Of a stretch of 64,000 bases of DNA, positions 7,430-53,058 are shown in pieces; the first letter of the stretch is position 1; the number at the start of each line of letters is the position of its first letter. The stretch is from Hyphomonas sp. TMED17 (lineage in GTDB: Bacteria > Pseudomonadota > Alphaproteobacteria > Caulobacterales > Hyphomonadaceae). The DNA is taken from positions 1-64,000 of the forward strand of contig NHBW01000009.1 in NCBI GenBank assembly GCA_002172915.1, in the 5' to 3' direction. Below the pieces are notes generated by a model. The model saw only the letters and a program-made list of their open reading frames with translations. It had not been told where the DNA came from and did no database searches. A program made the translations under genes and the position numbers.

Positions 7430-8682
7430 ATCAAGCCTAATTGTTGCAGGATTTCAGGAATTTTCTTCTTGAGACCAAAAAAACCACGTTGAGCTTTTGG
7501 CCAGACCATCTGGTCATACGCGATATCCAGATAGATGAATGTGATATCGTTTTGTTTTGCAGCGGCTTCGGCAGCATCGAGTCGTCTGAGGACGGGGCCA
7601 ATGGCCGGGCGAACAACTAAGACGGTTTCGAGCTTGTGTGCTAAGCACCAGTCACAAAGTGCCGCTGCCCAGTCTTCATTATCCGATGTTTCCCCTTTAA
7701 GGCCGAAGGCATCCGAGCCGGTCTGAACCGCGTTCTTGACCGCTTGGGTTGTAAAATCAGAGACGTGCTCGCCAAGTGGCAGTAAAGACCTCTGGGTCGG
7801 TGAGGTTAGGCCCAATATGGTGGCAGGCGCAGCCGCCAGTCTCAAGATTGCGGGTGCGCAATGCTCTTCAGTTATCAAAAGGCCGTAAGGTTCTTCCGGA
7901 CAGGTCACCGGTTTTGCTGCGGGTAGGGGCGTAATCGATAATGCTTCAGCTGGCAGCGGCGGCGCGATTGGAGATAATTGCCCGGCCGGGTTGAAGCGCC
8001 CATTTGTGAAACGTTCGATATTGTCGGCCCGGGCCAAATAGGTCTTTCCGACTGTGTGCAGGCCCGCGACCCAACGCCAGCTGCATGTATTCGATGCGGG
8101 ATCACCATCGATAAGATGCCGGAAAAAGAAATCGGCGCCAAGTTCCCATGGCAATTTTAGAGTGAAAATCCAAATGCTCGCAAACCACATACGGGCGTGA
8201 TTGTGCAAATATCCCGTCGCGACCAGCTCGTTTGCCCAATAGTCAAAGCAGTCGATGCCTGTATTGCCGGAGACTGCCATCTCATAGTCACGCTTCAGGC
8301 CGCTATCATTGTCTAAGTGTTTGATGCAGCCAGTGACGCCCACCCGGTAGCGTTGCCAGACATCCGGACGGTGTGCCAGCCAGCCTTTAAAATAGCCACG
8401 CCAGAAGACTTCCTGGATGAATTTCTCCGATGCCTGATAAGTGTGTCTGGCCAGCACCGATGTAAGTAATTCGGTTTCTGAAACCAGCCGATATCTGAGC
8501 CAAGGTGAGAGCAGGGAGACATGGTTGCGCTTATTTTCGCCGGGGTCCGTATTGCGCTGACTGGCATAGTGACGACCGGCATTTGGAACAAATTCCGATA
8601 TTCTCTGTAGACCTGCACGGCGCTCCGGTGACCATTTATAGGCGCCGGTATCAGGGGTGGAAAATAAGGAAGTTTGCGTCAT
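7426..8682 (-). CDS. Photolyase-family protein with N-terminal FAD-binding domain
   Basis: 418 residues. Residues 15 to about 250 match the photolyase/cryptochrome FAD-binding helical domain (EKFIQEVFWRGYFKGWL, then DYWANELVATGYLHNHARMWFAS). The usual N-terminal alpha/beta antenna domain is missing: the protein begins almost directly with the FAD domain. After it come a Pro-rich linker and a C-terminal alpha/beta segment (about 285-418, with LETVLVVRPAIGPVL and ITFIYLDIAYDQMVWP), which could be a relocated antenna-like domain. I believe this short form occurs in other alphaproteobacteria. Whether it repairs DNA or senses light is unknown. It shares a 4-base stop overlap with the PhrB gene. 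Confidence 0.8.
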   Translation of the reverse strand: MTQTSLFSTPDTGAYKWSPERRAGLQRISEFVPNAGRHYASQRNTDPGENKRNHVSLLSPWLRYRLVSETELLTSVLARHTYQASEKFIQEVFWRGYFKGWLAHRPDVWQRYRVGVTGCIKHLDNDSGLKRDYEMAVSGNTGIDCFDYWANELVATGYLHNHARMWFASIWIFTLKLPWELGADFFFRHLIDGDPASNTCSWRWVAGLHTVGKTYLARADNIERFTNGRFNPAGQLSPIAPPLPAEALSITPLPAAKPVTCPEEPYGLLITEEHCAPAILRLAAAPATILGLTSPTQRSLLPLGEHVSDFTTQAVKNAVQTGSDAFGLKGETSDNEDWAAALCDWCLAHKLETVLVVRPAIGPVLRRLDAAEAAAKQNDITFIYLDIAYDQMVWPKAQRGFFGLKKKIPEILQQLGLI

Positions 8683-8758
8683 CGAAATGACATAAGTCAG
8701 ACGTCGCGAACGGGAAGTCCTTGTGCCAGTGAACGGCGCAACTTTGTCTCGTGCGGGT

Positions 8759-9787
8759 CTATAGGCCGGTTTTCTGGTTCAGCTTCAAGGCGTCTATAAT
8801 CTGAAAAATACTATGCAACTCTCTGAGAAGCGATCGGGCATCATCGATAAAATCCTCGGTCTCGAACACCGAACCGGGTTCGAACAGATTGAGCCGCATC
8901 GGCACCATCATGAGCAGCTTGTTTTGATAGAAGCTGCATTCAATCGTTTTACCGCCATACCGCGTGCGAAGCGCCAGAAGGCGCTGCATAAAACTCGTGG
9001 TCAATAAATAACGAGCTTCGATCTGGTCATCGCTATAGACCGCGAATTCAGATTCAAACTCGACGTCTTCGAGCCGGACCCGTTCGAGTCTGTCTGTCGC
9101 TGCGCGAAACCAGTTGGTTATCCTTCCCTCATCCTTCCGGATAAGTGTCTGGCCTGAAAACTTCTTATGAATATCCAGCAGGACCATAACGCCCTTGAAC
9201 ACGGTTACAGAGCGTTCCTTGCGGCCTGTCTTGCGTTTTAAAACCAGTTCTGTTTCGAACAGCTCAATTGGTACGCCAAGATAATTGCCGACGAAGCGGT
9301 CTTCATTTTTTTCGATTGTATAATCAGGAACGATGCCAAACGGCTTTAAGGGTCTGACCCGCTCGCCGGGCGCTGGCTGATATTCAAATGGTCCGAAAAA
9401 TTCTATAATAAGCGGGAAAATCTGGTTTTTCAGAGCACTTCGATAATGTGCCAGAGGTGCATAGGTAAAAACGGCCCCGACCGCGAGGAGAAGGGCAGAG
9501 GTGACCAGCGTGAACGGCAATAGACTATTGCTTTCAGAAAGGCCGGAATAGCCGAAATAATGCCCGCCGATTACCAGCAATATGGTCGCGCACAGTATTA
9601 CGAGACGTGACTGGAAGCTGGCGACCGAAGCTTTTCTAGTCGTTTCGAAATCGACAACACGATGTTTGATATGGCGGTCATAATGTGCGCTGAAACCGGC
9701 TTCATGCGCCGTTTCTTCAGTAAAGACAGGCAGGAATTTTTCGCCGGGTTCAGTCGCACCCGCTTTATTTTTCGTGGGAGCGGTCAT
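8759..9787 (-). CDS. DUF3137 membrane protein
   Basis: 342 residues. Two hydrophobic helices near residues 60-115 (VILCATILLVIGGHYF and LVTSALLLAVGAVFTYAPL) are followed by a soluble domain of the DUF3137 type. The gene starts 16 bases after the lemA stop and is almost surely cotranscribed with it; LemA and DUF3137 genes are frequent neighbours in proteobacteria. The function is not established. The pairing suggests a shared membrane-associated role. Confidence 0.82.
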   Translation of the reverse strand: MTAPTKNKAGATEPGEKFLPVFTEETAHEAGFSAHYDRHIKHRVVDFETTRKASVASFQSRLVILCATILLVIGGHYFGYSGLSESNSLLPFTLVTSALLLAVGAVFTYAPLAHYRSALKNQIFPLIIEFFGPFEYQPAPGERVRPLKPFGIVPDYTIEKNEDRFVGNYLGVPIELFETELVLKRKTGRKERSVTVFKGVMVLLDIHKKFSGQTLIRKDEGRITNWFRAATDRLERVRLEDVEFESEFAVYSDDQIEARYLLTTSFMQRLLALRTRYGGKTIECSFYQNKLLMMVPMRLNLFEPGSVFETEDFIDDARSLLRELHSIFQIIDALKLNQKTGL

Positions 9788-9803
9788 TGTTAGTCATGCC
9801 CAT

Positions 9804-10376
9804 TTAATCAAGAATCTCATCGGCATCGACCGGCGCCTTGTTTGCAGCATCGGCTTTGTAGAAAGGCATGGTTTTTGCTGTTGTCAGGCCGGCGATCAGC
9901 GAACCGGGGAAAATCTCGATCGAATTGTTAAGCTCTGTCACGGCGGAGTTGTAGAAGCGCCGGGCGGCTGAAATCTGGGCTTCAATTTCGTTGTAAGTCT
10001 GCTGCGCTTGCAGCATGGTCTGGTCCGATGCGAGTTCGGGATAGGCTTCGACCGAGACCATGAGCCGGCTCATTGCGCTATCAAGCTGGCTGGCAATGTC
10101 TAAATGCTCTTTTGTCGCTGCACTATCGGACGGGTCGTAGGGGCCGCTTGTTTTGGCGCGTAATGCGGTGACTTCACTGATTAACTCTTTTTCGTGTGCC
10201 ATGAATTTTTTCGCAATTTTCAGAACATTGGGGATGAGGTCGCTGCGCTTGGTCAATTGCACATCAATCCCGGACAGCGCCTCCAATGCACGGTTCTTGG
10301 CTGCGATAATCGCCGCATATTTAAGATAGATCAGTAGAGCTGACCCGATAATGGCAATCAAGACTATTGTATCCAT
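9804..10376 (-). CDS. lemA: LemA family protein
   Basis: 190 residues. An N-terminal membrane anchor (IVLIAIIGSALLIYLKYAA) is followed by the helical LemA domain, with the typical VQLTKRSDLIPNVLKIAKKF and a later segment (AQQTYNEIEAQISAARRFYN) before the FPGSLIAGL region. LemA proteins are anchored helical-bundle proteins of uncertain function. A CGGAGAG ribosome-binding site precedes the ATG. It is the first gene of a two-gene operon with the DUF3137 protein. Confidence 0.93.
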   Translation of the reverse strand: MDTIVLIAIIGSALLIYLKYAAIIAAKNRALEALSGIDVQLTKRSDLIPNVLKIAKKFMAHEKELISEVTALRAKTSGPYDPSDSAATKEHLDIASQLDSAMSRLMVSVEAYPELASDQTMLQAQQTYNEIEAQISAARRFYNSAVTELNNSIEIFPGSLIAGLTTAKTMPFYKADAANKAPVDADEILD

Positions 10377-47220: not shown

Positions 47221-48716
47221 TCAAGCGTTTTCTGACATTATTTGGTTCAGCGCGGCATGATTTTTTTGTACCCTTGCTGGCACGCTGCGTCCGAAAAGGC
47301 TCATCATTACAGCCGTAAAGGCGGCGATGATGAAACCGGGGATAATCTCATAGATTAGCGATGATAATGACTGGCCGTCGACCGAGACCGGAGCATACAG
47401 CCAGAATAAGACGGTTAGCGCGCCGGAAATCATCCCATAAAGGGCACCATCCCTTGTAAGTTTTGACCAGAATAGGCTGAGAAGAATAACCGGTCCGAAA
47501 GCTGCACCAAATCCAGCCCAGGCATTTGAAACTAGCGATAGGATATTGCTTGAGCGATCGAAAGCCAGGGCAATTGCAACAAGACAAACCCCGATAGTTG
47601 CTAGTCGACCGACCATAACAAGTTCAGGCTGGCTAGCATTGGTTTTTATGAAGGTTTTATAGAGATCTTCGGTTAGCTAGCTGTAAGAGACCAAAAGCTG
47701 TGAAGAAATCGTACTCATAATAGCGGCAAGAATGGCCGCTAGCAGAAAGCCGGCGATAAGCTGATGAAACAATTGCTGGCTTAGCAGAATAAATATTGTT
47801 TCCGGATCTTCGAGCGCGCTCTGCAAATCGTTTGCTTGAACATAAGCGACCCCGGCAATCCCAACGAATACGGCCCCGAGAAGTGTAATCGCCATCCAGA
47901 CCATGCCAACAAGACGCGCCGTGGCAATATCCTTCAAAGAGCGGATTGCCATGAACCGGACGGTAATGTGCGGCTGGCCGAAATAGCCTAGTCCCCAGCT
48001 TAAAAGAGAGAGTGTTCCAAGCAATGTCATGTTGTCTAACCAGCTGAAAAATGCACTCCGGTCTGGCCCCGGGCTGCCGTCGGCTTGCATCCCTGGAGCG
48101 GCTGCGGCGATGCTGGTTTCGAGCGCGGTAAAGCCGCCAATCACAAACAGGGCGGCGACGGGCACAAAAATGAGTGCAATGAACATGATGGAGCCTTGCA
48201 CAAAGTCGGTCAGGCTGACGGCTAGAAATCCGGCAATGACCGTATAAGCGAGCACTACCCCAGCCGTGACGAAAAGACCGGTATAATAGTTAAGCCCGCA
48301 ACTTGCTTCAAAAAGCTTGCCGCCGGCGACAATCCCAGCCGATGTATACAGGGTGAAAAAACAATTATCACGAGAGCGGAGATAATACTCAGCGCGTGCG
48401 ATGAATCATTGAAGCGGTTTTCCAGAAAGTCCGGAATAGTGATCGAATCCTTTGCCATTTCGGTGTAGACCCGCAATCGTGGCGCGACGAAGCGATAGTT
48501 CAGATAAGCGCCAATCAGCAATCCGATGACAATCCATGCGGCCTCTACTCCACCTAGAAACACTGCGCCCGGCAGCCCCATCAGCATCCAGCCACTCATG
48601 TCCGATGCGCCGGCCGACAGCGCTCCAACCGCTGGATGCAATTGCCGGTTCCCCAGCATGTATTGAGAGATGTCGCCGGTTGATTTGCGATAGGCATAAA
48701 GCCCAATTGCCACCAT
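47221..48716 (-). pseudogene. putP: Sodium/proline symporter (PutP-like), broken
   Basis: Three pieces of one sodium:solute symporter in order. The N-terminal part (48716 to about 48360) has the SGWMLMGLPGAVFLGG signature. Then a run of six A on the plus strand (48356-48361) is one base short of the frame that continues as FFTLYTSAGIVAGGKLFE; this second part reads to a TAG at 47677-47679, within SSQLLVSYS-stop-LTEDLYK, where the family has SSSALTED. The C-terminal part follows in the same frame to 47221. The extreme N-terminus may hold a third lesion: a possible ATG (48766) starts in another frame. The gene would import proline with Na+. It is decayed or contains sequence errors. Confidence 0.85.
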
Positions 48717-49275: not shown

Positions 49276-49707
49276 ATGCCGGATAAATTTCTGAAATTTG
49301 CCTCAGTACTCGCCTCAGTACTGGCCTTTTTCTGGCTCTTTACGATCCCGGCAAATGCGCTGTCCGCTGCGTGTCACTGCAAGGGGTATGCCGGGCCAGG
49401 CGGTCCATGTTATGCGGGGCCTGGCGGTCCAGCCTATGATGGTCCGGGCGGGGCGGCGTATTCGGGGCCCGGTGGTCCGTGTTATGCCGGACCCGGTGGC
49501 GCGGCCTATGATGGTCCGGGCGGTCCGGCTTATGCAGGTCCGGGTGGCGCCTGTTATGCGGGCCCTGGTGGTCCGGCATATGCGGGTCCCGGCGGCGCGG
49601 CTTATGACGGTCCTGGTGGTCCTTGTTATGACGGCCCGAGCGGCGCTTGTTATTCTGGCCCCGGTGGCGGCAAGGATTGTCCGGAGATCTGTTCTCGCTG
49701 CCCTTAG
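49276..49707 (+). CDS. Secreted Cys-containing YxGPGG octapeptide-repeat protein
   Basis: 143 residues. A signal peptide (about 1-28, ends IPANA) is followed by a short CHC-containing lead and twelve octapeptides of the form Y-[ADS]-G-P-G-G-[PA]-[CA] (residues 38-133, last one degenerate), then a Cys-rich end (C135, C139, C142). Ten Cys in total; C45, C69, C93 and C117 fall exactly 24 residues apart, so the core has a three-unit super-repeat. Composition suggests an extended, elastic or metal/thiol-binding surface protein; no function is known to me. GGAGG lies 10 bases before the ATG. The NO-synthase fusion gene begins 156 bases downstream on the same strand. Confidence 0.75.
   Translation: MPDKFLKFASVLASVLAFFWLFTIPANALSAACHCKGYAGPGGPCYAGPGGPAYDGPGGAAYSGPGGPCYAGPGGAAYDGPGGPAYAGPGGACYAGPGGPAYAGPGGAAYDGPGGPCYDGPSGACYSGPGGGKDCPEICSRCP
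49387..49674 (+). repeat. Twelve 24-base tandem units encoding YxGPGGxx
   Basis: Consecutive 24-base units differ mainly at third codon positions and at the variable residues, so the protein pattern is conserved more than the DNA. Cys codons mark every third unit (72-base period) through the core, with an extra one in unit 11. Confidence 0.9.
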
Positions 49708-49840: not shown

Positions 49841-49863
49841 AAGACGACCGGGTGGGGCATGAT

Positions 49864-52800
49864 ATGGCGACGGTAAACACAAGTTGGGCCGATAGTATTA
49901 TCGAAAGCGGTCTGTTCGTATCACTGGATGCAGCCCAAAGGCGGGTCTTAGAATCGGTCGTCGAAGAGGTTAATGTACGCCCTGGTGAAGTTTTATTCCG
50001 GCAGGGCGATGCCTCAGACGCTGCTTATATTGTTATTACCGGCGCGATGCAGGTGCTGGCCAAGGATTATAATGACCGCGAGGTGATTATCGCGCGCCTT
50101 GAGCGTAAATCCTTTTTTGGTGAACAGGGCTTGCTGCAAGCGGCGCCCCGGCCGCGAAATGCAACGCTTCGGGCAGTAAATGGGTCTCGCCTTTTGAAGA
50201 TCCCGGCGGCGGCATTTAAAGCCATTCATGACAAACAAAGCGACGGCCGGCTGGCCAGAAAAGATGCTGAGAACGCGCTCGAGCGCATGGCCAAAACATC
50301 GGCTATTGGCGATGCTTTCTCTCAATTGACGCTGGCCGAAGCGGCCCCGGAGACCAGTCACCTGCTTGCAGGAGAGACGATGGATGTTTCCAATCGGGAA
50401 ACGGATCGTATTTACTGGGTCGAACAGGGTGATGTCACGATTTATCGCAACACGTCTGAGGGGCTCGCTCTGCTGTTACGGGTTGGAGCTGGCGGTGTGT
50501 TCATATTGTCCGACGAGGTCCTTGATGACCAGCCGAATGCGATCGGGAATGCCGATCTCATACTGGCCGAGACAACAGCGCAGCTTCTAAGCATGAATGT
50601 GGGTGCTAGCCGGGCCGGGTCTGGAGAGGACGGGGCTGGTGTGGATGTATGGCGCAAATTGCGGCGCGCCTTGAATGTTCAACGTATGGGGCTTGTGACC
50701 CAGTATGAGGGGGTCTTTGAAACGGAACCAGCGCTGATGACGCAGTACCGGCTAAGGGAGGGCCGGCAAGTTGTTGCCGCATCGCTGATCGAACGGGATG
50801 CGGTGGCATTTCGGGAGGTCGGTTGTGATGGCGCAATTGAATGGCTTACCTCTGACGTCGCTGCCGGGGTTCGCATCGGGCGTATGTCTGACCGGATTGT
50901 TGCAATTGACGCCGGTATGGAATGGCGCGGGCTTGGTGAGGCTGTCGAATGCTTGCTGAAAGGGCGGGAGTTGAAGACCTGGCATGGCGAGTTCTTTGAA
51001 CAAAACGGGGTTCTCGATGGCACGGCAACCGTGGAGACCGGGACCGGCGATGAGTCCAGTATTATATGTGCCTGTACTGGAACCACGCGTGGCCGGGTCA
51101 TGGCGCTCCTGTCTGAAGGCGCATCACAGAGTGACGTTCAGGCGTGCACTGGCGCCGGCTCGATCTGCGGTAGCTGCACTGTCCGTATCGGGGAAGTATG
51201 CGGCGATGAAGACCTGATGCGACCGGTACATGTCGATCGGTTTGAGCGGCTATCAACTGATCTGGCGGCGCTTAAACTGGTCGGGGCAGACTGGGTCCTG
51301 CCAGCGGCTAGCCCGGGCCAGCACATCGCTTTAGAGAGTTTTATAAATGGGCTCTGGATCCGGCGCTCTTACACCTTAGTCGGCACGCAGGGTGGCGAGC
51401 AAGGGTGGACGCTGGTCTTGAAAAAAGAGCCGATGGGGACGTTGTCGCCGTGGCTTTTTGAGCAGGGTCGTTCAGTTTTGTTAAGGGTATCGCAAGCACA
51501 GGGCGACGCCATAGATGCTGAAACCGACCGACCGCTTGTTTTCATGGTTGCCGGCGTCGGGGTGACACCGGCGCTCGCAATACTGAATGGGGCAGTTACT
51601 CGACCGGTAACAATTCATGCCTCAGTATCGGATCAGTCGACGGGCGATGTGGTCCGGGCCCTGATGGATCAGTGTGGGGGTCTGGCAAATTTAATTATTC
51701 AAAACACCGCCGAGCGGGGTCGGGTCGGCGCGTCTGAAATTGCCGACATGCACCGGCGTTTTCCCAATGCTGACTGGTTCGTCTGTGGACCTGAGAGTTA
51801 TGAAGCCGACATTACCAATTGTCTGAATAATTTAGGGATAGACGAGGCGCGTATTCGTGTTGACCGGTTCACACAGGCCGGTGAGCCACCTGTCGATGAC
51901 GGCAATTGTCCGGCGCCGGTGCCAGCCTTGCCCGCTCTGGCTGCCCGTCCTCATGAAACCGGACGTATTGAACTATCTGAAACTGATCCGGACGCGCCTG
52001 AGGCGGCTGTTTTGCTGGAGCAAATATTCGCGGAATGGCAGCAGACCGGCGAGCATGATCTCGCCGGTAGTGAAGACGTACGCCGCGAACGACTTGCTTT
52101 AGCCGGGTCTGGGCAATTATTTGATCCGACCACTGAAGAGTTAAAGGCTGCAGCACGACTGGGATGGCGTAATGCAAATCGTTGTATTGGCCGGCTGTAT
52201 TGGAACGGGCTTGAAGTGCGCGACCGTCGGCATGTGCGTGATCCCGAAGCGATGCTTTCCGAAATGGTTGATCATTTGAATTTTGCAACAAATGATGGAA
52301 AATTGTGCAGTCTGATAACTGTTTTCGCAGCCGTCGATGAAGGCGGAACTGAAATTATCAGTCCGCAATTGGTGCGTTATGCCGGATATCGTGATGCAAA
52401 TGGTCAGGTAACCGGTGACCCCGGGCATATCGCATTAACGAAAATGGCTGAAGCCGCGGGATGGCGCGGCGCTGGCGGCGCTTTCGATCTTTTGCCATTA
52501 ATGGCCAGAGACGAAACAGGCCGCCTTCATATCAGATCTTTGCGGCCAGACGAGGTTCTAGAAGTGGATATCTCGCATCCCGATTATGGCTGGTTTTCCG
52601 AGCTCGACCTGAAATGGCATGCCGTGCCAGGGATTGCCAGCCAGGCTCTGGATGCATTCGGCCGAAAGTTTCGGGTTGTTTTCAATGGTTGGTATATGGG
52701 GACAGAAATCGGGGCGCGAAACCTGAGTGACCCATATCGATATAATGTTCTGCCGGCGATTGCCCGTCGGATGGGGCTCGATATTAGTGATGATGCTTCG

Positions 52801-53058
52801 CTTTGGCGGGATCGCGCAATGCTGGAACTTAACCGGGCTGTGCTGTATTCTTACCGGCAGGCTGGCGTAACGATGCTAGACCATCATACCGCCTCAACCG
52901 AGTTCCTGCAGTTTGTTGCAGATGAACATGCGCTTGGACGCGAGGTTCAGGCCGAGTGGTCCTGGATTGTACCGCCAATATCTGGCTCTGCAGTAACGCC
53001 TTATCATCTCGACTTTCCCAATACTTACTTCAAACCGGCTTATGTGCCTCTCGACTAG
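49864..53058 (+). CDS. nos: Nitric oxide synthase fusion: cNMP-binding, [2Fe-2S], FAD/NAD reductase and NOS oxygenase domains
   Basis: 1064 residues from ATG 49864 (GGTGGGG upstream; the frame opens at GTG 49852). In order: cyclic-nucleotide-binding domain (16-121) with phosphate-binding cassette FFGEQGLL and R98; a degenerate second copy (156-246); an unassigned segment (250-395); a BFD-like [2Fe-2S] domain (400-448; C402, C404, C435, C438); a ferredoxin-reductase module (451-670) with FAD motif RRSYT, NAD loop GVGVTP and CGP; and a NOS oxygenase domain (711-1064). The last has the heme Cys C774 in WRNANRCIG, the arginine-binding Glu E948 in NGWYMGTEIG and the pterin-side WSWIVPPISGS. It should make NO from arginine with its own electron chain: NAD(P)H to FAD to Fe-S to heme. 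Cyclic nucleotide control is inferred. Confidence 0.93.
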   Translation: MATVNTSWADSIIESGLFVSLDAAQRRVLESVVEEVNVRPGEVLFRQGDASDAAYIVITGAMQVLAKDYNDREVIIARLERKSFFGEQGLLQAAPRPRNATLRAVNGSRLLKIPAAAFKAIHDKQSDGRLARKDAENALERMAKTSAIGDAFSQLTLAEAAPETSHLLAGETMDVSNRETDRIYWVEQGDVTIYRNTSEGLALLLRVGAGGVFILSDEVLDDQPNAIGNADLILAETTAQLLSMNVGASRAGSGEDGAGVDVWRKLRRALNVQRMGLVTQYEGVFETEPALMTQYRLREGRQVVAASLIERDAVAFREVGCDGAIEWLTSDVAAGVRIGRMSDRIVAIDAGMEWRGLGEAVECLLKGRELKTWHGEFFEQNGVLDGTATVETGTGDESSIICACTGTTRGRVMALLSEGASQSDVQACTGAGSICGSCTVRIGEVCGDEDLMRPVHVDRFERLSTDLAALKLVGADWVLPAASPGQHIALESFINGLWIRRSYTLVGTQGGEQGWTLVLKKEPMGTLSPWLFEQGRSVLLRVSQAQGDAIDAETDRPLVFMVAGVGVTPALAILNGAVTRPVTIHASVSDQSTGDVVRALMDQCGGLANLIIQNTAERGRVGASEIADMHRRFPNADWFVCGPESYEADITNCLNNLGIDEARIRVDRFTQAGEPPVDDGNCPAPVPALPALAARPHETGRIELSETDPDAPEAAVLLEQIFAEWQQTGEHDLAGSEDVRRERLALAGSGQLFDPTTEELKAAARLGWRNANRCIGRLYWNGLEVRDRRHVRDPEAMLSEMVDHLNFATNDGKLCSLITVFAAVDEGGTEIISPQLVRYAGYRDANGQVTGDPGHIALTKMAEAAGWRGAGGAFDLLPLMARDETGRLHIRSLRPDEVLEVDISHPDYGWFSELDLKWHAVPGIASQALDAFGRKFRVVFNGWYMGTEIGARNLSDPYRYNVLPAIARRMGLDISDDASLWRDRAMLELNRAVLYSYRQAGVTMLDHHTASTEFLQFVADEHALGREVQAEWSWIVPPISGSAVTPYHLDFPNTYFKPAYVPLD

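Follow-up and report, generated by a model that had tools for sequence, protein, structure and literature searches.

Our analysis confirms that a single uninterrupted gene in the window (the whole 64,000-nucleotide stretch analyzed) encodes cyclic-nucleotide-binding (CNB) units, a BFD [2Fe-2S] domain, an FNR-type FAD/NAD reductase and an NO synthase (NOS) oxygenase on one chain. The reading that we favor, and that we consider moderately probable from the sequence, is that this protein is a self-sufficient bacterial NO synthase gated by a cyclic nucleotide. The gene occupies positions 49864 to 53058 of the forward strand, on which all features given below also lie, and runs for 1,064 codons from its ATG at 49864 without an internal stop; a GTG at 49852 is an alternative start. 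The order of the parts is CNB1, a CNB2-like unit, a region that we call domain X, BFD [2Fe-2S], FNR, and NOS oxygenase. Pfam, NCBIfam and the alignment bear out the domains and the order given in the original prediction, and both cNMP_binding and NO_synthase were detected when Pfam was run on residues 1 to 1064 at a loose E limit of 1. The list was nevertheless incomplete, since it missed the degenerate CNB2-like unit and domain X, and its picture of the family left out a sister set carrying EF-hands as well as the further CNB-NOS proteins, of which there are at least nine. The AlphaFold model of the protein has a mean pLDDT of 73.5 and a pTM of 0.53.

At the catalytic end, residues 713 to 1061 (52000 to 53046) match PF02898 (NO_synthase) with an E value of 6e-119, and this part of the model matches the B. 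subtilis NOS with a target TM-score of 0.88. By HMM, predicted fold and residues, we assign it to the NOS oxygenase family PF02898. The catalytic residues were correctly named from the start: the heme-ligand Cys774 (52183 to 52185), the substrate-arginine-binding Glu948 (52705 to 52707) and Trp1032/Trp1034 in the pterin-stacking region (52957 to 52965) are all invariant in 16 aligned fusion rows, the model being of low confidence at 1033 to 1046. Upstream, the same 16 rows keep the four cysteines of the BFD-like [2Fe-2S] domain (Cys402, 404, 435, and 438; 51061 to 51195) and, in the reductase module (residues 453 to 670; 51220 to 51873), the FAD residues R501 and Y503 and the NAD residues G564/G566/T568/P569 and C641-G642-P643. 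Some of the profile matches count against the favored reading: Fer2_BFD (PF04324, residues 400 to 444) has an E value of 5.4e-4 and 20.7 bits, under the curated 26, and FAD_binding_6 (461 to 533) an E value of 0.02 and 15.6 bits, under the cut-off of 21.1. The branch of the protein in the reductase tree, at 2.18, is also very long. The whole FNR module aligns to the reductase region of the NCBIfam Hmp model (453 to 670, E value 1.2e-16), and its 60.7 bits lie far below the equivalog cut-off of 432, as expected because only a shared domain matches. The NCBIfam NirB model also touches residues 363 to 444.

Directly ahead of the [2Fe-2S] domain, and after the CNB units, the 16-row alignment delimits domain X (residues 256 to 396, about 130 residues; 50629 to 51051), which our protein shares with the EF-hand NOS fusions. 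It is modeled with a pLDDT of 86.8. Its PDB matches by Foldseek were all insignificant (best E value 0.49), and no clear Pfam family was found for it, DUF6204 touching it weakly and below cut-off in two of seven relatives. Many of the weak top Foldseek matches are AIF/ferredoxin-reductase-type proteins, which, like the NirB match, hints at a fold resembling the C-terminal part of reductases, though below significance.

The order CNB-CNB-X-BFD-FNR-NOS oxygenase recurs in nine other proteins, seven of them reached through a genome scan and two from the class of Polyangium. These nine come from MAGs of Sericytochromatia, Alpha- and Gammaproteobacteria and Planctomycetota, from Polyangium, and from two other genomes of the same class as Polyangium. 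The scan gave 80 loci, and in 64 of them the tblastn match was confined to the oxygenase part; among these, L026 was domain-scanned singly. A frameshifted MAG copy (L018) and a copy whose front is lost at a contig end (L023) were left out of the architecture counts; L023 is included in the trees and in the gate-residue count below, L018 in neither. Within Sericytochromatia, the full protein is present in 1 of 18 genomes of the class, the one already known. Six short patterns from the protein gave no match in viral contigs, and none of 113 matching plasmid records covered at least 80% of the query, the best among the 30 listed being NOS oxygenases. CNB-NOS proteins are apparently a small, undescribed family in several bacterial phyla. 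No CNB-NOS fusion, and no identical architecture, was found among the papers listed by full-text searches, although an absence from open-access full texts is weak evidence.

Known fusions help to place this family. The order [2Fe-2S]-FAD-NAD-NOS oxygenase on one chain is that of scNOS, the self-sufficient enzyme of Sorangium cellulosum with an N-terminal reductase and a C-terminal oxygenase (PMC3701330; similar proteins are reported in Microcoleus and Crinalium), so that the comparison with Sorangium drawn in the original prediction was apt. Two Sorangium homologues also share domain X and BFD with our protein, but carry an EF-hand pair in front (see also a legend in PMC7400543) where ours has CNB domains. 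They belong to the sister set, in which EF-hand matches fall in the sensor slot of all seven scanned members, six over the curated cut-off and one (L016) below it only; our protein has no Pfam EF-hand match at E values up to 1. Because EF-hands and CNBs occupy the same slot ahead of an X-BFD-FNR-NOS oxygenase core that the 16-row alignment shows to be shared, the slot appears to be swappable between Ca2+ and cyclic-nucleotide sensors. EF-hand-NOS fusions are published from cyanobacteria and delta-proteobacteria (PMC7016017); like our protein they join a second-messenger sensor to a redox-equipped NOS, with a Ca2+ sensor in place of CNB. The passage on these fusions mentions cNMP-binding domains solely as another partner of EF-hands, in verrucomicrobiae. 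SyNOS of Synechococcus PCC 7335 is likewise a single-chain bacterial NOS with an extra N-terminal domain and a reductase; it has a globin and the canonical mammalian-type layout, and the passages on it in PMC6104048 mention neither CNB nor BFD, whereas our protein has no Pfam match to globin or flavodoxin at E values up to 1.

The shared layout raises the question of shared descent. Our protein could have a separate origin from the other CNB-NOS proteins, through a second fusion or a replacement of the NOS oxygenase, the likeness being one of layout only; we regard this as possible but doubtful. Its closest oxygenase by BLAST score is L026, from the marine alphaproteobacterium AG-426-B21, a stand-alone NOS oxygenase about 49% identical to ours whose ORF, unlike our gene, has neither sensor nor reductase; both share the motif DAFG. 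In the best oxygenase tree the two pair (100/99) outside the fusion clade, and hence outside the Sorangium clade. Trees in which our protein joins a CNB-fusion clade without L026 are rejected (p-AU 0.0058), as is a grouping that joins every fusion to L002 and L008 but leaves out L026 (p-AU 0.0043). A separate origin also draws on the Ile gate described below and on the GC3 of the oxygenase stretch, 0.47 against 0.56 to 0.61 in the rest of the gene. However, these groupings are rejected because they part our protein from L026: once L026 is admitted, neither a single CNB clade (p-AU 0.267) nor a single clade of all fusions, L002 and L008 (p-AU 0.30) is rejected, so that the trees would also accord with an L026 that has lost its front half. 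A p-AU of 5.8e-5 against one fusion clade is confounded, because the nested stand-alone L002 and L008 were shut out as well. In the reductase tree the 11 CNB rows form one group, but its support is negligible (53/17), and both this tree and the N-terminal tree are too weak to decide on one history for the fusions. Recent transfer of the whole gene, considered on GC content, was dropped: its GC3 is an ordinary 0.54, beside 0.50 to 0.58 in its neighbors.

Whatever its descent, the regulatory reading depends on the CNB units. CNB1 (residues 36 to 123; 49969 to 50232) matches PF00027 (cNMP_binding) with an E value of 1.8e-24, and a search of its own genome gives the same bases. Its phosphate-binding cassette, GEQGLLQAAPRPRNATLRA (50119 to 50175), has Glu87 and Arg98, the kind of residues that we take to define such cassettes, and this Glu and Arg are retained in 10 of 10 aligned CNB-NOS proteins, across phyla. 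Strong purifying selection acts on CNB1 in a trio of related Polyangium-type genes: the pairwise dN/dS is 0.04, 0, and 0.01, compared with 0.13 to 0.16 for NOS and 0.21 to 0.31 for the linker. CNB1 has the lowest value in two pairs, and in the remaining one BFD is lowest (0.03). A putative control of NO output by cAMP or cGMP is supported by these conserved binding residues and this selection. The CNB2-like domain (about residues 160 to 250; 50341 to 50613) is recognized by a weak second PF00027 stretch at the E limit of 1 (the per-genome search at 0.001 gives the first only), by alignment and by beta strands in the model. The corresponding stretch, FILSDEVLDDQPNAIGNAD, shows no phosphate-binding cassette with Glu and Arg, and the cassette is similarly degenerate in three of the nine other CNB-NOS proteins, i.e., in 4 of 10 in total. 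This degeneracy would suit CNB domains that are structural or sense something else (a dimerization scaffold, a non-cyclic ligand, redox or heme), leaving NO output independent of cyclic nucleotides, and CRP/FNR-fold domains often serve other ligands and can also serve none. We nevertheless judge such an explanation unlikely, given the conservation of CNB1 and the presence of EF-hands, another second-messenger sensor, in the same slot of the sister set.

The genomic context of the gene speaks on both sides. Two class III cyclases, of the GAF-GAF-PAS and CHASE2 types, are encoded in the host genome, and the scanned CNB relatives all come from hosts with at least one (7 of 7), which suits a cyclic-nucleotide-gated enzyme; but the host's own two lie on other contigs, and both EF-hand hosts tested have cyclases too, so that their presence does not discriminate between the readings and was dropped as discriminating evidence. 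No H-NOX, an NO sensor, was found in the 91%-complete host genome, which weighs against the favored reading. In two related MAGs (L014 and L015), a class III alcohol dehydrogenase of the GSNO-reductase family lies 33 to 34 bases downstream of the NOS gene on the same strand, which we count in favor of the favored reading. These MAGs are close relatives, and their neighborhood therefore counts as one observation; no such neighbor was seen by eye at the other CNB-NOS loci looked at. No operon partner of our gene was recognized among ORFs inspected by eye, four of which were domain-scanned, one matching a family.

Two features of the active site set our protein apart. The NO-gate residue is Ile924 (52633 to 52635), where 17 of 17 other fusions have Val, and the loop before FNGWYM lacks one residue (between Val939 and Phe940; 52678 to 52683), again in contrast to all 17. 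Together with the long branches of the protein, they could mean that it has drifted and that its oxygenase makes NO inefficiently or yields another product, which we find improbable. The heme Cys, arginine Glu and Trp are all present, and bacterial NOS usually have Ile at the gate (PMC9500659), as do 23 of 28 readable stand-alone rows (8 of 36 were missed by the pattern and excluded). The loop has its usual length in 43 of 46 rows read; our protein and L026 are one residue short, and by the pattern applied L051 counts as short too, at another place in the loop. The deletion looks kept rather than an error, because it is shared with an oxygenase as distant as L026. An assembly join or a mis-binned contig is scarcely credible: the host assembly is a draft, with a completeness of 90.8% and a contamination of 2.8%, and 0 of the 17 listed same-genus genomes have NOS, but the reading frame is unbroken over all domains within a 125-kb contig (125,515 bases), the GC3 of the gene resembles that of its neighbors, and the same domain order recurs in nine other assemblies, one of them on a 13.2-Mb contig, which argues against an accident.

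How could a cyclic-nucleotide-gated NOS work? Electrons would pass from NAD(P)H to the FAD of the FNR module, then to the BFD [2Fe-2S] cluster and on to the heme of the oxygenase, which would oxidize arginine, yielding citrulline and NO. A 3',5'-cyclic nucleotide may occupy CNB1, and the tandem CNB units with domain X could then shift the position or accessibility of the cluster and so gate electron flow. Tandem-CNB proteins such as the PKA regulatory subunit and PKG likewise have two CNB units in a row before their effector; there the effector is a kinase, whereas here it would be an electron-transfer chain with a heme oxygenase. The proposed gating role is that of calmodulin in animal NOS, and the EF-hands of the sister set may act likewise. 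The [2Fe-2S]/FNR unit may be a sensor-coupled module that supplies electrons to heme enzymes and can be re-used among them. On a wider view, to which we give about even chances, bacteria of several phyla have modular self-sufficient NO synthases with interchangeable second-messenger input, EF-hand/Ca2+ in one branch and tandem-CNB/cyclic nucleotide in the other, before a common X-[2Fe-2S]-FNR gate; cyclic nucleotides would control NO, and further heme enzymes would make use of the same blocks, an MPAB/Lcp-type oxygenase carrying CNB-BFD and a P450 carrying BFD-FNR.

Animal NOS produces NO under the control of Ca2+/calmodulin, and the NO in turn raises cGMP. If the favored reading is true, a cyclic nucleotide would stand upstream of NO within one molecule, the reverse of this wiring, and one signal molecule could directly switch the production of another. 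The EF-hand sisters would be a bacterial parallel to the Ca2+ control of animal NOS. Such proteins would offer a single-chain system for studying how sensors gate electron flow into the NOS heme, and a direct route to the question of what controls NOS output in bacteria.

The window gene (49852/49864-53058, + strand) is an ORF without interruption. It lies on a contig of 125 kb in a draft genome of 2.45 Mb, where it is the sole NOS match. The original prediction of an NO synthase joined to a cyclic-nucleotide-binding (CNB) domain is borne out by Pfam matches (NO_synthase, 6e-119; cNMP_binding, 1.8e-24). The predicted Fe-S/FAD reductase is supported by an Hmp-type FAD/NAD module at residues 453-670 (NCBIfam), with Fer2_BFD and FAD_binding_6 matches below the cut-off. 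A structure model built with 16 rows (pLDDT 73.5) has strand-rich units at both CNB positions and also includes domain X (the conserved domain preceding the BFD [2Fe-2S] domain), BFD, FNR and the NOS oxygenase (NOSoxy), with unreliable placement of the domains relative to one another (pTM 0.53). Domain X was modelled confidently when alone (pLDDT 86.8), and this model had no significant fold match in the PDB. Just 5' of the gene, a 143-aa ORF (49276-49707, + strand) has Gly-Pro-Gly-Gly repeats and a signal-peptide-like start; an NCBIfam search with it gave no match. A sodium/solute-symporter-like sequence, recognised by eye, is broken into three ORFs (47221-48716, - strand), reflecting either a decayed gene or sequence errors.

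NOS is rare among the relatives of the host. In overlapping genome samples, it was found in 1 of 289 genomes of the class (the host itself), 2 of 200 of the order (the host and one stand-alone NOS) and 3 of 398 of the phylum (the host and two stand-alone). A scan of the genome collection gave at least 598 pattern matches, at least 578 of them confirmed, and the best 80 were kept. Among these best 80, seven loci have the full CNB-CNB-X-BFD-FNR-NOSoxy layout: MAGs of Sericytochromatia (L012), Reyranella (L013), Gammaproteobacteria (L014), Pseudomonadales (L015), Rhodospirillales (L017) and Planctomycetaceae (L022), and Polyangium sp. 6x1 (L074). All seven exceed the cut-offs for cNMP_binding (two stretches), Fer2_BFD and NO_synthase, and six do so for FAD_binding_6, L022 being slightly below. 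In the class of Polyangium, 166 of 192 genomes matched at 1e-20, in most cases over no more than the CNB or the FNR part; three encode full-length CNB-NOS, two of them new (L095, L096). Among 18 Sericytochromatia genomes, only that of L012 has one. This brings the CNB-NOS proteins to ten, window included; a further relative, L023, has a truncated front.

Eight more of the best 80 loci (of at least 578 confirmed) align from about X or BFD onward. The seven that were domain-scanned (L016, L019, L020, L021, L024, L025, L033) all have EF-hand matches, and no CNB, before BFD-FNR-NOSoxy; every EF-hand score of L016 is below the curated cut-off, as are the BFD scores of three Flavobacteriaceae. Two Sorangium genomes are among the members. 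Since either CNBs or EF-hands precede a shared X-BFD-FNR-NOSoxy, one core is associated with two kinds of second-messenger sensor. A bolder claim would be that the sensor slot of self-sufficient NOS is swappable. NOS with an N-terminal reductase (PMC3701330) and EF-hand-NOS (PMC7400543, legend; PMC7016017) are already known; relative to both, CNB-NOS appears to be new, and no such fusion was found in the portions of the open-access full-text literature covered by our search. The EF-hand-type NOS of Paraliomyxa miuraensis (L016/L097) has a C-terminal FHA domain; in the same genome, a second match spans X to NOS and a third NOS alone.

Is the sensor functional? The cassette Glu and Arg of CNB1 (in the window protein, FFGEQGLLQAAPRPRNATLRA) are present in all ten CNB-NOS proteins. 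Those of CNB2 are present in six (L012, L013, L017, L074, L095, L096) and absent from the window protein, L014, L015 and L022. All 16 aligned rows have the same BFD cysteines, core residues of FNR and catalytic residues of NOS. Among three Polyangium-type genes, dN/dS, a rough measure here since the three pairs are related and the domains span 54-364 codons, was 0.04, 0 and 0.01 for CNB1, 0.03-0.17 for BFD, X, CNB2 and NOS, 0.20-0.24 for FNR and 0.21-0.31 for the linker. The minimum was in CNB1 in two pairs and in BFD in the remaining one. In these genes, selection maintains the CNB sensor. Judging from the modules, electrons would pass from NAD(P)H to FAD, [2Fe-2S] and heme. The likeliest control point would be the mobility or access of the [2Fe-2S] cluster, because CNB2 and X directly precede its domain; the direction of control, the ligand and the product of the window protein are likewise deduced.

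The same blocks are found in other proteins, where domain X was assigned by alignment-model match or by eye. L099 (1414-2769, - strand) and L100 (1411-2769, - strand) encode CNB-CNB-X-BFD and form, with L101 (1429-2460, - strand), a CNB-(CNB)-X-BFD group without reductase or oxygenase. L102 (13-3702, + strand) fuses three CNB stretches and BFD to an MPAB/Lcp-type heme oxygenase domain. L098 (1-2472, - strand), from a Polyangium-class genome, has BFD-FNR ahead of a cytochrome P450 in a single chain (Pfam p450, Fer2_BFD, FAD_binding_6), i.e., a P450 with an N-terminal reductase, its frame running off the locus. The layouts of L098, L099, L100 and L102 show that the CNB, X, BFD and FNR blocks have been recombined as units. 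The host itself encodes an 817-aa protein in which a pyridine-nucleotide oxidoreductase part is combined with two CNB domains and 4Fe-4S domains (L134, 2722-5175, - strand, G000:C5), a further putative CNB-sensor redox enzyme; the adjoining ORF, judged by eye, has many CXXCH motifs.

Two class III cyclases (GAF-GAF-PAS and CHASE2 types) are encoded in the host genome, both on contigs other than that of the window, which makes a cyclic nucleotide plausible in the cell. Such cyclases occur in all nine relative hosts tested. Their presence is necessary, not telling, because both EF-hand hosts among the nine have them too. The CNB-NOS genes of L014 and L015 are followed, after 33-34 bases, by a class III alcohol dehydrogenase gene (regions 8243-9128 and 8216-10211, respectively), and this in L015 by one for S-formylglutathione hydrolase. 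The L015 enzyme exceeds the TIGR02818 equivalog cut-off (639 vs 544 bits); the L014 copy, cut by the locus end, scores 486 bits. Class III alcohol dehydrogenases are the GSNO reductase family, and the pairing agrees with NO production plus S-nitrosoglutathione disposal. The window gene has no such neighbour. The four stand-alone NOS genes L003, L004, L009 and L011, which come from the class of the host and from two alphaproteobacterial plasmids, all overlap an upstream radical-SAM gene, a recurrent cassette; a glycosyltransferase lies near by in three (names in L003 and L004 given by eye).

Finally, the history of the oxygenase was traced in a tree of 54 NOSoxy rows. One clade (97/90) unites L023 with all nine CNB fusions besides the window protein, and its sister group consists of the EF-hand fusions plus stand-alone L002 and L008 (entire set 93/94). 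The window NOSoxy pairs with L026, a stand-alone NOS of a marine alphaproteobacterium (100/99), apart from the fusion set, and the two have a one-residue loop deletion in common. Placing the window without L026 in the CNB set (p-AU 0.0058), or with all fusions, L002 and L008 (p-AU 0.0043), was rejected; placing both together in the CNB or the all-fusion set was not (p-AU 0.267 and 0.30). As rejection occurs only when L026 is excluded, the trees show the pair, not its position. The window protein may be a fast-evolving fusion member, with L026 a relative that lost its front. The NO gate is Ile in the window protein vs Val in all 17 other fusions; stand-alone NOS have Ile in 23 and Val in 5 of the 28 rows readable by pattern (of 36). 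The window protein may also be the product of a domain replacement, or a second, independent fusion; the reductase and N-terminal trees did not decide on its origin. In either of these two cases, the CNB-NOS layout would have been reached more than once, which would argue for its function.
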